Shown here: positions 26,108-32,451 of the stretch, piece by piece
How the letters are laid out: each line of letters starts with the position of its first letter
How positions within the stretch are numbered: the first letter of the stretch is position 1
Source: Actinomycetes bacterium
Lineage (GTDB): Bacteria; Actinomycetota; Actinomycetes; Streptosporangiales; Streptosporangiaceae
Length of the DNA: 36,348 nucleotides
Assembly: GCA_025964615.1 (NCBI GenBank)
Contig: JAOPYM010000026.1
Coordinates: 1-36,348 of the forward strand
Reading direction: 5' to 3'
Position numbers and translations under genes: made by a program
The notes under the pieces: model-generated
What the model was told of the DNA's origin: nothing
Seen by the model: the letters and a program-made list of their open reading frames with translations, nothing else
Databases searched by the model: none

Positions 26108-26133
26108 CGGTACCGGTGTTCACACTGGTACCG
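26108..26133. promoter_or_regulatory. Palindrome in the ftsZ leader
   Basis: CGGTACCGGTGT and ACACTGGTACCG are inverted around a two-base centre (TC). The 12 pairs include one G-T. As DNA it could be an operator of a dimeric regulator; as RNA it would be a strong hairpin 36 bases before the ftsZ start. There is no T-run after it. Confidence 0.6.
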
Positions 26134-26169
26134 GCCGGTTGGACAGAGCGAGCGGAAAGGCCCCTCGTC

Positions 26170-27555
26170 GTGGCAGCACCGCAGAACTACCTCGCGGTCA
26201 TCAAGGTCGTCGGCATCGGCGGCGGCGGCGTCAATGCCGTCAACCGGATGATCGAAGAGGGTCTCAAGGGCGTCGAGTTCATTGCGATCAACACCGATGC
26301 CCAGGCGCTGCTGATGAGCGACGCCGACGTCAAGCTGGACGTCGGCCGGGAACTCACCCGCGGGCTCGGTGCCGGTGCCAACCCGGATGTGGGCCGCAAG
26401 GCTGCCGAGGACCACCGCGAGGAGATCGAGGAGGTCCTCAAGGGGGCCGACATGGTCTTCGTCACCGCGGGTGAGGGCGGTGGAACCGGTACCGGCGGAG
26501 CGCCCGTGGTCGCGAACATCGCACGCTCACTCGGTGCCCTCACCATCGGTGTGGTGACCCGTCCCTTCAGTTTCGAGGGCAAGCGCCGCGCCATGCAGGC
26601 CGAGGCCGGGATAGAGACCCTGCGCGACGAGGTCGATACCCTCATCGTGATCCCCAACGACCGGCTGCTGTCGATCTCCGACCGGCAGGTCAGCGTGCTC
26701 GACGCCTTCAAGGCGGCCGACCAGGTGCTCCTGTCCGGTGTGCAGGGCATCACCGACCTGATCACCACGCCCGGGCTGATCAACCTCGACTTCGCCGACG
26801 TCAAGTCGGTCATGTCCGGTGCGGGTTCGGCGCTCATGGGCATCGGTTCCGCGCGCGGCGACGACCGCAGCGTGGCTGCGGCCGAGATGGCGATCTCCAG
26901 CCCGCTCCTCGAGGCGAGCATCGACGGCGCGCACGGGGTGCTGCTGTCCATCTCGGGCGGCTCGGACCTGGGCCTGTTCGAAATCAACGAGGCCGCCCAG
27001 CTGGTGTCCAACGCGGCGGCTCCGGATGCCAACATCATCTTTGGTGCGGTCATCGACGACGCGCTTGGCGACGAGGTGCGGGTCACCGTCATCGCTGCGG
27101 GCTTCGATGAGGGACCCGTCAAGCCGGCCCTCGAGCCGGAGCGGCGTGCCGTACCTCCGCCCGCGCGTCCCGTACCTCCGCCACCACGGCCCGCGACCAC
27201 CTCGCCGGTCGGCACCTCGTTCGGCACTCCCGTGGCGCAGTCCCTGGTGTCAGAGTCCGCCGCCCGTCCGGTGCCGGTCGCCCAGGTGATCGAGACCCCG
27301 GTCGTGGAGACCGTCCCGATCGCCGAGCCGGTGGGACGCGAGACCGAACCGGCTGTGGGCCCTAAGGTGCCGCGGCCGGCGAACGAGCCGTCCGCGGCCG
27401 ACAGTGGTCACGAGGACGCGAGCCCCGAGCCCGCGTCCTCGTCCCAGGCGAGCTGGAAGGACGAGCCCGCGCCCTCCTGGAAGGAGCAGGCGCGTCGCCG
27501 CCCGGTCGTGTTCGACGAGGATGACGACCTCGACGTCCCCGATTTCCTGAAGTAG
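26170..27555 (+). CDS. ftsZ: Cell division protein FtsZ
   Basis: A 461-residue tubulin-like GTPase that forms the Z ring. GGGTGTG, the nucleotide-binding signature, is at residues 103-109. [17 protein letters not shown] opens the GTPase domain and [17 protein letters not shown] belongs to the C-terminal domain. A Pro/Glu-rich linker (about residues 320-450) leads to the C-terminal peptide [11 protein letters not shown], the SepF-binding tail. The frame is open to 26116. The GTG at 26170 gives the standard actinobacterial opening (V/M)[12 protein letters not shown] and has GGAAAGG before it. It is probably driven by its own promoters. ylmE follows after three bases. Confidence 0.98.
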
Positions 27556-27558
27556 GCC

Positions 27559-28254
27559 GTGCACCGCAAGGACGAACTCGCCGCCAACCTGGCGGACGTA
27601 CGGGGACGGATCGCGGTCGCCTGCGTGGCCTCGGGCCGGGACCCCGGTGATGTGACGTTGGTCGCCGTCACCAAGAACTTCCCGGCTGCGGATGTACGGC
27701 TGCTCGCCGGGCTCGGTGTGACCGAGGTCGCGGAGAACCGCGACCAGGAGGCGGGCCCTAAGGCGGCCGAGTGCGCCGATCTGCCGTTGACCTGGCACTT
27801 CGTCGGACAGTTGCAGACCAACAAGGCGCGTTCGGTCGCCTCGTACGCGGCCGTCGTCGAGTCAGTGGATCGTTCCCGCCTGGTACGCGCACTGTCCCAG
27901 GCGGCGGTGGCCGCCGGCCGGGAGCTGAGCTGCCTCATCCAGGTGGGCCTCGGCGAGGGTCAGGGCCGCGGTGGCGCGAGCCCGGCAGAGGTGCCCGCGC
28001 TGGCCACGGCCATCGCGGCGGCGCCCGCCCTGGAACTGGGCGGGATCATGGCGGTCGCGCCGCTCGGCGCCGATCCCGGACCGGCCTTCACCCGGCTGGC
28101 CGCCATCGCCGCCACCGTGCGGGCGGAACATCCGGGGGCGGTGATCCTCTCGGCCGGCATGAGCGGCGATCTGGAGCAGGCCATCGCGTGTGGCGCGACA
28201 CACGTGCGTGTCGGTACGGCGTTGCTCGGCGGCCGACTGACAATCGTCAGGTAA
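27559..28254 (+). CDS. ylmE: YggS/YlmE family PLP-binding protein
   Basis: A 231-residue alanine-racemase-fold protein that binds pyridoxal phosphate at Lys39 (VAVTKNFP). Family segments [26 protein letters not shown] and [12 protein letters not shown] are present, with the C-terminal [10 protein letters not shown] phosphate site. The family keeps PLP and amino-acid pools in balance and has no known enzymatic activity. The GTG start is three bases after the ftsZ stop. In Streptomyces a ylmD gene sits between ftsZ and ylmE; it is missing here. Confidence 0.93.
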
Positions 28255-28259
28255 TGTCC

Positions 28260-28285
28260 CCCGGGAGGGGCCCATGGCCCCCGGG
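28260..28285. other. Short stem-loop between ylmE and sepF
   Basis: GGGGCC (28267-28272) and GGCCCC (28276-28281) pair around CAT, and CCC/GGG flanks could add three more pairs. It begins just after the ylmE stop. There is no T-run; it could weakly attenuate or terminate transcription, or do nothing. Confidence 0.3.
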
Positions 28286-28354
28286 TATCAGTCGGCGAGC
28301 GGCTGTCCCCCAGTACTGAGCACCAGCACTGAAGCAGAGGATGTCGGAGGGCAA

Positions 28355-28867
28355 ATGGCCAGCGCGATGCGCAAGATGGCGGTGTACCTCGGCCTCGTGG
28401 AGGACGACCGCTATGACGACGACTACGACGAGTACGACGTCTACGACGAGGACACCGCGGAGCGGCGTCGCGGCGAGGAAGAATCGGGTCAGCCCACCCG
28501 AGCAGAGGAGCCCATGGCCCGGGAGCCGGTGACACCGGTCCCGAGGCCCCGGCGGGCGACGCTCGTTCAGGAGTCCACCTCATCGGACCTTGCGCGCATC
28601 ACCACGCTTCATCCCAGGACGTACAACGAAGCACGTACTATCGGAGAGCACTTCCGTGAAGGTACTCCGGTGATCATGAACCTGACCGAGATGGTCGACA
28701 GCGACGCCAAGCGTCTGGTCGACTTCGCGGCTGGTCTCGTCTTCGGTCTTCATGGGAGCATTGAGCGTGTAACGAACAAGGTGTTCCTGCTGTCACCGGC
28801 CAACGTCGAGGTAACCGCCGAGGACAAGGCCCGGATGGCAGAACGAGGATTCTTCAACCAAAGCTGA
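28355..28867 (+). CDS. sepF: Cell division protein SepF
   Basis: A 170-residue Z-ring membrane anchor. The N-terminal [15 protein letters not shown] is an amphipathic, membrane-binding start. A very acidic Asp/Tyr/Glu linker (about residues 18-50) follows, then the SepF core from about residue 80 ([44 protein letters not shown]). It binds the FtsZ C-terminal tail and replaces FtsA, which actinobacteria lack. The frame opens at 28274, but the ATG at 28355 has GGAGGG four bases upstream and matches the family start. Confidence 0.97.
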
Positions 28868-28888
28868 GACCCACATGCGAGAGTGTCC

Positions 28889-29179
28889 GTGACAATCGTA
28901 GTAGCCGTGCTGACGGTCGTGCTCTATCTCTTTCTCCTGTTCTTGATCGGCAGGTTGGTCCTGGAGTACGTGCAGCGTTTCGCACGGTCATGGCGGCCGA
29001 CGGGGGTGGTGCTGGTGCTGGCCGAGGCCACGTACTCGGTGACCGATCCGCCACTGAGGCTGCTCAAGCGCTTCATCCCGGACGTTCGTCTGGGTAACGT
29101 GGCGTTCGACCTCAGCTTTACGGTGCTCTTCCTTGTGGTATGGGTCTTGATCATCTTCGTTGGGAGCTGGTCCTCATGA
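28889..29179 (+). CDS. ylmG: YggT/YlmG family membrane protein
   Basis: A 96-residue protein with two membrane segments, at the N-terminus (VVAVLTVVLYLFLLFLIGRL) and the C-terminus (FTVLFLVVWVLIIFVG). Between them lies the conserved YVQRFARSWRP...YSVTDPPLRLLKRFIP loop of the YggT family. The role is unclear; in Gram-positive bacteria it is linked to division and in plastids to nucleoid distribution. I prefer the GTG at 28889 because GAGAG lies five bases upstream; the GTG at 28883 would add two residues. Confidence 0.92.
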   Translation: MTIVVAVLTVVLYLFLLFLIGRLVLEYVQRFARSWRPTGVVLVLAEATYSVTDPPLRLLKRFIPDVRLGNVAFDLSFTVLFLVVWVLIIFVGSWSS

Positions 29180-29250: not shown

Positions 29251-30147
29251 ATGCCGCTGACACCTGCGGATGTGCGAAACAAGCAGTTCAGTACGACCCG
29301 GCTGAGGCCGGGCTACGACGAAGAGGAGGTCGACGCCTTCCTCGACGAGGTCGAGGCTGAGCTTGACCGGTTGATACAGGAGAACGAGGAGCTGCGGGCC
29401 AAGCTGGCAGAGTGCCTGCGCGGCAAGGTTCCGCAGATGGCCGCTCCCATCGTTGAGCCCAAGCCCGAGCTGGCCCCCATGCCCGAGCCCATGCGGCCCG
29501 AGCCGCAGCCCCAGCCCGAGCCCGTCGTCAGCCTCGGCATGTCGCCGAGCGGCGAGGACAACATGGACACCGCCGCGCGCGTACTGGCGCTGGCGCAGCA
29601 GACCGCCGACCAGGCGATCGCCGACGCACGCCGGGAGGCCGACGAGACACTCGGCCGTGCCCGCCGTGAGGCCGAGGACATCCTCGGGAAGGCCCGCCGC
29701 CAGGCCGACCAGATCGTCAGTGACGCCAGGTCCCGCGCCGAGCAGCTCGACCGCGACGCCCAGGACCGGCACCGCCAGGTGATGGGCTCGCTCGTGCAGC
29801 AGCGCGAGGACCTCGAGCGCGACGTCGACAACCTGCGAGCCTTCGAGCGTGAGTACCGGACCCGGTTGAAGGCCTACCTGGAGGGTCAGCTCCGCGACCT
29901 TGAGGCGGGTACGACCGAGGCCGGCGCCTTCCCCAAGGGCGTCACCACCACCGGTCCCCAACCGGCGGTGCAGGCTCCGATCACACACGTCGACACCCGC
30001 AACGGGCAGCAGGGACCCGTGCCGGCCGTGCCGGGACCGCCTCCGTTCGCGCCCCCGGTCGAGCCTGCCCAGCACTCGCAGCACGCGCAGCACTCCGCGA
30101 CCGGTGCGTTCCACGCGGTGGAGACCCCGCCGCACGAGCGGCGCTAG
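29251..30147 (+). CDS. divIVA: Polar growth protein DivIVA / Wag31
   Basis: A 298-residue coiled-coil protein that marks curved membrane at cell poles and recruits the wall-elongation machinery. The N-terminal DivIVA domain (MPLTPADVRNKQFSTTRLRPGYDEEEVDAFL) holds the membrane-binding residues and the first coiled coil, to about residue 56. A Pro/Glu/Gln linker (about 66-95) separates it from a long second coiled coil at about 105-215. A disordered Pro-rich tail ends the protein. A strong AAGGAG site precedes the ATG. It is the last gene of the ylm block. Confidence 0.97.
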   Translation: MPLTPADVRNKQFSTTRLRPGYDEEEVDAFLDEVEAELDRLIQENEELRAKLAECLRGKVPQMAAPIVEPKPELAPMPEPMRPEPQPQPEPVVSLGMSPSGEDNMDTAARVLALAQQTADQAIADARREADETLGRARREAEDILGKARRQADQIVSDARSRAEQLDRDAQDRHRQVMGSLVQQREDLERDVDNLRAFEREYRTRLKAYLEGQLRDLEAGTTEAGAFPKGVTTTGPQPAVQAPITHVDTRNGQQGPVPAVPGPPPFAPPVEPAQHSQHAQHSATGAFHAVETPPHERR

Positions 30148-30256: not shown

Positions 30257-30309
30257 TCCCGCCGGTGGCGGCGCCGGGTGCTCGTGCGACCGGTAGAGGG
30301 AGAGACCCT

Positions 30310-31665
30310 GTGATCATCCTGAGTGGCGTGCTCGTCGTCCTCGCCATCGGCCTGCTCATCGCGGGCATTCTGGCCGGGGCGAGCGGAGTCGCGGGTATCG
30401 AGGGGCTTCAGCTGATCTACATCTCGATCGGGGTCAGTATCGTCTCGGCGCTCTGCCTGCTCATCGGGGTGATCATCCGCCGCAAGGAGATCTTCGGGAG
30501 CGCAGGGGCGGTATCGGCGCGGGCCAAGGGGCCGAAGCCCGTCAAGCCGGGCAAGGTCGCACGGCAGGCGAAGGCTGCGGTCGAGCCGCTGGAGGAGGAG
30601 GCATTCTCCATCGCCTCCCAGCCGCTGGAGGTACCCCTTGACTCTCCCGTCTTCGTCGTACGCGGCCGCAAGCGCTACCACCTGGAGAGCTGCAGGCAGC
30701 TCGCCGGGCGGGACAAGGAGGACCTCACCTACGAGGAGGCCCTGGAAGAGGGCTTCAGCCCGTGTACGGCCTGCCTGCCCGACACCGCACTCGCGGCGCG
30801 CGCAGCGATGTCGGCAGGCGAGCCCGCAGCGGCCGATGATCTTTCAGAGGGCCAGTCTCCGGTGATCGCGGGCGGGCTGTCCCGCTCCGCCGCCGCCTCC
30901 CAGCCCGGCGCGTTCGGCACCCGTACTCCCGAATGGGATCTCCCGCCGGTACAGAGCGGCTTCGAGGCGCCCGTGGCCTTCGCCCCCGAGGAGCAAGACC
31001 CGGTCGGCGGCGTACCGGCCCCCGCGGCCCCATGGGAGGTGCCGTCGTGGGGCAGGTCCCCGCTGACGGACCCGATCCCCGAGGCCGCACCGGTGGAGGA
31101 GCCCGCCACGGCGGAACTCTCGGCCGTCCCGGGGAGCTTCGATCAGGAACTGTCCTGGGAGGTTGTGCCACCACGGCACTCCGAGCCAGAACCCGAGCAT
31201 GAACCCGCGATCGTGGATTTCCGCTCAGCCGAAACCGAGACCGAGACCGAGACCGAGACCGGGACCGAGGTGGAGATCGTCCCTGTCGCCGAGGTCGAGG
31301 CGGAGGTCGAGACCGAGGTCGAAGCTGAAGGCGACCCGTTGGGCGCGGAAGCCTGGCCAGAGCCGGTCGAAACGCCTGCACCCGAACCCGAGCCGGCGCA
31401 TGCTGAGACGGCGGAGTTCGAACCCGAGCGGGCAGTGGACGAGACCGTTCCCGCAGCGGCGGCACAGGTGCCCACGGAGACCGGCGCCCCGCGAGTACGC
31501 ATCCTGAGCGGGACCAAGCGCTATCACCGCCCCGACTGTGCCCTCATCGAGGACATCGGCGAGGAGGCGGAAGACCTGGAGACCCTGTCCCGCGACGAGG
31601 CCAAGGAGCGGGGCTGCACCCCGTGCCTGGTCTGCCAGCCCGACAAGGAGCCCAGCCTCGGCTGA
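30310..31665 (+). CDS. Membrane protein with two Ada-like H-x3-C...C-x2-C modules, function unknown
   Basis: A 451-residue protein that I do not recognise as a named family. Two membrane helices (about 2-22 and 34-56) are followed by a basic stretch. Module 1 contains KRYHLESC...PCTAC, with H124, C128, C152 and C155. A disordered acidic Pro/Glu region of about 240 residues follows, including an ET repeat. Module 2 contains KRYHRPDC...PCLVC, with H406, C410, C439 and C442, at the C-terminus. Each module has the H-C-C-C pattern of a zinc site and resembles the Ada metal-binding fold. The GTG at 30310 follows GAGGGAGAGA; the open frame starts 15 codons earlier. It lies just after divIVA and may act near the pole, but that is only context. 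Confidence 0.8.
   Translation: MIILSGVLVVLAIGLLIAGILAGASGVAGIEGLQLIYISIGVSIVSALCLLIGVIIRRKEIFGSAGAVSARAKGPKPVKPGKVARQAKAAVEPLEEEAFSIASQPLEVPLDSPVFVVRGRKRYHLESCRQLAGRDKEDLTYEEALEEGFSPCTACLPDTALAARAAMSAGEPAAADDLSEGQSPVIAGGLSRSAAASQPGAFGTRTPEWDLPPVQSGFEAPVAFAPEEQDPVGGVPAPAAPWEVPSWGRSPLTDPIPEAAPVEEPATAELSAVPGSFDQELSWEVVPPRHSEPEPEHEPAIVDFRSAETETETETETGTEVEIVPVAEVEAEVETEVEAEGDPLGAEAWPEPVETPAPEPEPAHAETAEFEPERAVDETVPAAAAQVPTETGAPRVRILSGTKRYHRPDCALIEDIGEEAEDLETLSRDEAKERGCTPCLVCQPDKEPSLG
31231..31266 (+). repeat. Six 6-bp repeats (GAGACC type) inside the membrane protein gene
   Basis: GAAACC, GAGACC four times and GGGACC lie in frame and encode a Glu-Thr run (last pair Gly-Thr). The tract could change length by slippage without shifting the frame. 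Confidence 0.9.
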
Positions 31666-31685
31666 GGCCACCGGACGAGGGACCG

Positions 31686-32408
31686 TCAGTAGTGGCGGCG
31701 GTCCCGGCGGGCGGCCCGCAGTTCGCGGAGCCGGTCCCTTCGCTCGTCGCGGAGCACCCGGCGCTGCTCCCTGGCCACCTGCCGTTCGGCCCTCGGCAGC
31801 TGCCGCTTGACGTCGATGCCGCCGAACAGGCAGTACCCGGTCAGCCTGATCACCGGGGCGTTCGGGTCGGCCGGCTGGTCTGCGTCCACCGACCGGCCAC
31901 CGAAGATGGCCGAGCCCGAGTCGATGACCCGGACCCCCGGCGGTACCTTGATTTCCACGCCGCCGAAGATGCAGGTCACATTGATCGTGACCTCCCGCTG
32001 GGACAGCACGGCCTCGCGGAAGTCGAGGTCGACGCCGCCGAACAGGGTGAAGACGTTGGTCTCCGGTTCGACCAGCCAGCGGCCCTTGCGCTCCGCGCCG
32101 CCGAAGATGGCGACGATGCCCGACGACTGCAGGAGCGGGGCGGGCAGTGGCGGGGTCTGCGGCTGGGGCGCGGGCGCGCCCGTCGCGGGCAGGTCCTCCA
32201 GGAGCGGGGCCAGCTCGGCGTACGTTCGGGCCGAGTAGACCTGGTCGATGCGTTCGGAGTGCTCTTCGGGGGTCAGCCGGCCCTCGGCGAGCGCCTCGCG
32301 CAACTGGTCCGCGACCCGGTCGCGGTCGGCGTCGGAGGCGCGCAGACGCGACGGCTCGGGCTGTGCGGGAGGCTGTTCTGGAAGGTCCACGGGTACATCA
32401 TCGCGCAC
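31686..32408 (-). CDS. DUF1707 / LiaF-like C-terminal domain protein
   Basis: A 240-residue protein. A DUF1707 domain (RASDADRDRVADQLREALAEGRL onward, about residues 20-75) is followed by a beta-rich domain. That domain has five FGG turns (IFGGAE, LFGGVD, IFGGVE, IFGGRS, LFGGID), as in the LiaF-like cell-wall-active-antibiotic response family. A basic C-terminal tail rich in Arg follows. No membrane helix is seen. The function is unknown, though LiaF homologues sense envelope stress. The frame extends to 32540; I chose the GTG at 32408 and a GTG at 32390 is an alternative. Neither has a good ribosome site. It diverges from the DUF167 gene with 43 bases between. Confidence 0.85.
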   Translation of the reverse strand: MRDDVPVDLPEQPPAQPEPSRLRASDADRDRVADQLREALAEGRLTPEEHSERIDQVYSARTYAELAPLLEDLPATGAPAPQPQTPPLPAPLLQSSGIVAIFGGAERKGRWLVEPETNVFTLFGGVDLDFREAVLSQREVTINVTCIFGGVEIKVPPGVRVIDSGSAIFGGRSVDADQPADPNAPVIRLTGYCLFGGIDVKRQLPRAERQVAREQRRVLRDERRDRLRELRAARRDRRHY

Positions 32409-32451
32409 GAGATGTATCTCAACCAAGCCCCAACCTGAGGAGGGTGAAGAG

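Follow-up and report, generated by a model that had tools for sequence, protein, structure and literature searches.

The gene behind divIVA

The window, by which we mean the whole 36,348-nt stretch of DNA that was analysed, carries the tail of a division cluster in the order ftsZ - yggS - sepF - yggT - divIVA, with the gene described here directly after it; all are on the plus strand, and the next gene, which is DUF1707/LiaF-like, is on the other strand (Table 1). In genomes G015 and G036 ileS lies just downstream of the gene, while in the window it is missing from that place (31665-32446) and the genome's ileS is found on another contig (G000:C528:9521-11995). The interval between divIVA and the gene gave no consensus promoter or terminator match, a search that is uninformative in a GC-rich genome. 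The GTG start is kept in relatives, where the protein begins with [MV]-I-x-x-S-[GA]. From a short N terminus the 451-residue product runs through two membrane helices and a basic juxtamembrane stretch into a first module, a linker and a second module, and it contains 8 Cys and 5 His in all, of which 6 Cys and 2 His are the module ligands.

Table 1. Features of the divIVA-linked locus, in coordinates of the window
Feature	Position	Strand	Evidence
ftsZ, yggS, sepF, yggT: division-cluster tail upstream of divIVA	26116..29179	+	order conserved
divIVA, next gene upstream, 162 bp away	29251..30147	+	PF05103, E 3.4e-20
RBS-like stretch GAGGGAGAG (AGGGAGAG), 5 nt before the GTG start	30296..30304	+	from sequence
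Complete gene for the 451-aa protein (hairpin, two modules and the linker between them)	30310..31665	+	homologues with the same architecture
Membrane hairpin (helices at residues 2-24 and 32-61), the core that the divIVA-linked family conserves	30313..30492	+	AF2 helices; hairpin profile
Basic juxtamembrane stretch RRKEIFG...KGPKPVKPGKVARQAK, residues 57-92	30478..30585	+	net +7 in 58-92; RRxELFG/P conserved
Module 1, residues 111-169	30640..30816	+	AF2 pLDDT 90.5; N-Ada Z 5.5; ligands invariant
Module 1 ligands H124, C128, C152, C155	30679, 30691, 30763, 30772	+	
Linker, disordered and in this protein acidic; relatives differ in its length and charge	30817..31479	+	model and composition
Module 2, residues 393-446, extreme C terminus	31486..31647	+	AF2 pLDDT ~80-94; N-Ada Z 6.5
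Module 2 ligands H406, C410, C439, C442	31525, 31537, 31624, 31633	+	

Pfam and NCBIfam profile searches returned no model that spans the whole protein and no match to the NCBIfam models for SepX/GlpR and SCO2097, and a literature search found no study of it. The protein encoded downstream of divIVA is an uncharacterised but widely conserved membrane protein.

That the gene sits beside divIVA had been noted from the letters of the window alone, together with the expectation of a conserved link between the two, and such a link was found. In a search of 60 related genomes, 33 gave matches, mostly directly behind divIVA. A scan of the genome collection with a profile of module 1 yielded 163 relatives, and the best 80 of these, which were kept, are by their titles Streptosporangiales (Actinomadura, Nonomuraea, Spirillospora, Actinoallomurus, Actinocorallia, Streptosporangium, Spongiactinospora and MAGs). 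Reading frames were recovered for 78, comprising 70 with both modules, 7 cut by the end of the locus or contig, and one with a single module; in every one of the 76 with upstream DNA, DivIVA is encoded immediately upstream on the same strand. Adjacency to divIVA also holds in nearly all examined family-mates that have both genes on one contig. Of 150 genomes from the order, 96 have a match to the module profile, and 85 of these have two or more. Adjacency to divIVA is not in itself proof of a shared function. In some family members, several short tandem copies (~37-48 residues) of the DivIVA N-terminal motif were seen in frames (G005:C3, G017:C3, G020:C1:883165-883941, G022:C1:166470-167141 and G029:C1:3054280-3055002).

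According to passages of a review, actinobacterial divIVA is nearly always next to the gene for the small membrane protein SCO2078 (upstream, yggT-like), for which a role in polar growth is speculated; the downstream gene is not mentioned in those passages (PMC4255298). CwsA/CrgA and SepX/GlpR, too, are membrane partners of DivIVA/Wag31 or of the divisome in actinobacteria (PMC4255298; PMC10522489); the only similarity seen was sub-threshold, from one hairpin homologue to SepX and SCO2097.

Two copies of an Ada-like module

The motifs H124-x3-C128-x23-C152-x2-C155 (module 1) and H406-x3-C410-x28-C439-x2-C442 (module 2) fall exactly where the sequence-only reading had placed them, at residues 124-155 and 406-442. 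One such motif occurs in 0.04% of 200,000 composition-preserving shuffles of the protein, and two motifs in none. The two modules had also been taken for internal copies, and an identity of 38% (BLASTP E 1e-9) agrees with this, so that by sequence comparison we regard them as true copies of each other. An extra Cys adjoining module 2, Cys436, is not conserved.

All 49 modules from the first loci collected have the H, C, C and C ligands; a V and an A are likewise invariant, with a G and an R nearly so. Since these modules had been gathered by a pattern that demands the ligands, the profile was rebuilt with the ligand columns masked and the six frames of the loci were searched again, which brought to light no ligand-less module in the family. 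Loss of the H/C set in close homologues, which had been raised as a point against the original proposal, was therefore not seen. Farther away, a class-level hairpin protein directly behind divIVA (L269) has a module with all four ligands gone (VLVVNGEPYFYVAEGG...LPLAEAIELGFEPYDAA, iE 4e-4 with the masked profile); the metal ligands are thus universal in the modules seen within the order and losable at greater distance. This ligand-less module occupies residues 115-169 of a minus-strand frame, keeps the fold signature, and was seen only with the ligand-masked profile.

In a module tree, module 1 forms a single group across several families and the order's own module 2 another group. The module 2 sequences of f13, f14 and f37 branch close to module 1 instead, a placement made with 59 columns only that could perhaps reflect a second duplication. 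A two-helix hairpin with a single C-terminal H-x3-C...C-x2-C module also occurs in actinobacterial proteins that were not seen near divIVA (L062, L063 and L064).

Module 1 was modelled alone with 32 aligned modules (confidence in Table 1). Foldseek against the PDB placed N-Ada first (1u8b, probability 1.00, TM 0.67 by query), with nothing else of weight beyond another N-Ada chain. With a second aligner, module 1 matched 1u8b at Z 5.5 (rmsd 2.4 over 54 residues), and module 2, taken from the full-length model and matched on its own, at Z 6.5 (rmsd 2.0 over 51 residues), both modest values as expected at ~50 residues. We assign the Ada fold because N-Ada stands alone, because the two modules match it independently, and because the sequence profile agrees, aligning RYH...C...C..C onto IFC38...C42...C69..C72 of Ada. 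Taken together, profile alignment and predicted fold put the four residues where the Ada zinc ligands lie. The Ada-like metal site of the sequence-only reading has therefore held up well: in the models the Ada metal fold is reproduced for both modules, N-Ada chains alone are matched with any confidence, and H-C-C-C stands at the positions of Cys38/42/69/72.

With the E. coli Ada N-domain (PF02805; PDB 1u8b, 1zgw, 1wpk, 1adn) the modules share the fold (51-54 residues at 2.0-2.4 A), all four ligand positions and a conserved EA..GF.PC..C.PD signature. On the other hand, their first ligand is His in 49 of 49 modules where Ada has the methyl-accepting Cys38, they are duplicated and membrane tethered, they have no basic DNA surface, and the protein has no HTH or methyltransferase. 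Mean net charge per 50 residues is -1.2 and -1.4 for the two modules as opposed to +6 for the same stretch of Ada, and the basic residues of Ada have no counterpart at the equivalents of Arg67, Lys70 and Arg71. A role in Ada-type DNA repair was rejected because His replaces Cys38 in every module and the basic DNA-facing surface is gone. To judge from the same residues and from their charge, the modules are probably not DNA-binding sites. Each is, by its ligand set, probably a structural Zn2+ site.

Against PF02805 (Ada_Zn_binding) the protein scores 19.8 bits for a cut-off of 23, and the modules score 16.9 and 13.6, also below it; no PF02805 or canonical Ada match was found in this genome. The best Pfam match of the protein is PF19746, DUF6233 (E 1e-5), at 26.0 bits just under the cut-off of 27.6, and 25 of 32 individual modules match it at E <= 1 (best E 6e-6). 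DUF6233 has the same H-x3-C...C-x2-C ligand set (the pattern is present in L116, L117 and L119) and the same PDTxL tail, but those members over the cut-off that were examined have a single module and no such hairpin, whereas the protein here has two modules and a hairpin. Most proteins over the DUF6233 cut-off come from f20 genomes, and a literature search found no paper naming DUF6233. By profile comparison DUF6233 is the nearest named relative of the modules, which we would place in an Ada_Zn_binding/DUF6233-like group, below both curated cut-offs. The initial view that no family fits is thus right for the protein as a whole, which no model covers, but not for its modules, which match PF19746 and PF02805 just under their cut-offs, nor for its hairpin, which represents an actinobacterial divIVA-linked family.

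The membrane hairpin and the linker

Both membrane helices anticipated from the sequence are present in the model (residues 2-24 and 32-61). The N terminus ahead of helix 1 is uncharged, the loop has a single acidic residue, and the stretch of 35 residues that follows helix 2 has a net charge of +7; by the positive-inside rule the modules should therefore face the cytoplasm, the same side as DivIVA, SepF and FtsZ.

A hairpin profile made from the first 64 residues, mostly of the protein's own order, was run over the six frames of class-level divIVA loci and gave matches at E 1e-26 to 2e-3; below E 0.1, it matched ORFs directly behind divIVA alone. The forms found there have two modules in f13, f14 and f37, one in f39, a ligand-less one in f24 and none in f6, f12, f16 and f19, and some are only 51-70 aa long. 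No such hairpin frame was found within 900 bases in families such as f20, f21, f15, f11 and f28. From this distribution the hairpin is the older core, standing behind divIVA across many actinobacterial families and often without modules. In f16, homologues without modules (L253, L254, L255, L256, L258 and L259) have long K/A/P-rich, histone-H1-like tails after the hairpin and lie directly after divIVA. Structural matches to the hairpin (FrmR and others) were set aside as generic helix pairs.

The f6 forms L112 and L235, matched by the hairpin profile at E 1e-8, lie directly behind divIVA just as the gene does here, but have no zinc modules and end in a short acidic tail. For L235 there were NCBIfam matches to SepX (NF050099, 17.2 against a threshold of 150) and SCO2097 (NF058603, 21.4 against 110); membership of these families was rejected, the matches being sub-threshold only. 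We take this f6 form to resemble M. tuberculosis Rv2144c, the gene behind wag31. The wag31 gene itself is Rv2145c (PMC3605390).

Within the protein's own family, one clade has the hairpin and linker without a module and shares the motif RTDGLGK[AS]SVP, and another has only module 2. The motif was seen in the linkers of module-less proteins (L098-L105, L227 and L230-L233), and a related GLGKTAVP accompanies module 1 in L037; it is possibly a binding or phosphorylation motif. Module loss is the simpler reading of this clade, because L037 has both a GLGK-type motif and a module. The modules are not universally needed, with several clades lacking them and some retaining module 2 only.

The stretch between the modules had been described as some 240 disordered acidic residues. 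Its disorder (pLDDT mostly <50) and its acidity (a net charge of -45 over 220 residues) were confirmed, but the inter-module spacing is ~250 rather than 240. In the 70 closest relatives with both modules, H-to-H spacing ranges from 196 to 696 residues, and linker charge among relatives varies from -45 to +26 per 100 residues; no conserved linear motif was found in the linkers beyond the AARAAVS tail of the module 1 helix. Part of the acidity in the window comes from a GAGACC hexamer repeat (6.8 copies, 31229-31269) encoding (Glu-Thr)n, which is likely a length-variable site.

A candidate adaptor at the cell pole or septum

The explanation that we consider best, at somewhat less than an even chance, is that the protein works as a cytoplasmic adaptor, tethered to the membrane, for the polar and septal machinery of DivIVA. 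Its anatomy and gene linkage come directly from sequence and models; from these we infer the metal, the place and the partners. The hairpin would sit in the membrane at DivIVA sites, be it the hyphal tip, a branch point or the septum, and each module would hold one structural Zn2+ through His-Cys3. The two modules would serve as protein-binding heads, and the flexible linker would let one anchor reach two partners. The protein is a strong candidate for a cell-pole or cell-division adaptor in mycelial actinobacteria. A more specific version, which we hold with greater doubt at perhaps one chance in three, is that an Ada-type metal domain, stripped of its methyl-acceptor Cys and DNA surface, was duplicated and mounted on the ancient divIVA-linked hairpin to give a two-headed tether of tip or septum.

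The main competitor to an adaptor, unlikely as we judge it, is that function resides in the hairpin, which might for example modulate DivIVA or YggT in the membrane, with the zinc modules as lineage-specific regulatory additions or near-passengers. It is favoured by those homologues from other families in the class that follow divIVA and consist of the hairpin alone, or of hairpin and linker, by the loss of whole modules in some members of the own family, and by the ligand-less module of L269. At the same time, in-order modules are strongly conserved, with invariant ligands, across linkers that conserve nothing, which argues that the modules are under selection where they are present.

Distinctly less probable is a membrane-to-chromosome tether, in which modules or linker would bind DNA and so keep the chromosome close to the DivIVA pole. 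N-Ada, whose fold the modules have, does bind DNA, and the histone-H1-like tails or linkers of homologues in other families would suit such a function, but the modules of the window protein are net negative and without equivalents of the three basic Ada residues, and its linker is strongly acidic. We give slightly less weight still to a thiol, metal or alkylation sensor for the tuning of polar growth, akin to the Ada Cys switch: considering the Ada-type His-Cys3 site, the cytoplasmic thiols and the extra Cys436 beside module 2 such a role is conceivable, but Cys38 of Ada is His in every module, Cys436 varies, the protein has no output domain, and the genome has no canonical Ada. An envelope-facing metal-dependent factor, one of the options of the sequence-only reading, is very improbable, and its topology was rejected on the charge distribution: the stretch immediately following helix 2 is basic, whereas the loop and the residues ahead of helix 1 include no basic one. 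Its support is the membrane anchoring and the listing of Rv2144c, annotated as TM and of unknown function, among exported proteins in a table from an infection screen (PMC5405230). A fusion in the outer loop could account for that result, and Rv2144c is only tentatively tied to the family.

DivIVA organises tip growth in actinobacteria, and its ties to the membrane and to partners are still being worked out. The gene described here is locked to divIVA over much of the order, with an older hairpin core that extends further through the class, and its modules, as modelled, show that the metal fold of Ada has been reused in a setting other than DNA repair. If the protein is indeed a tether, the machinery for polar growth in mycelial actinobacteria would have a component that had gone unrecognised.
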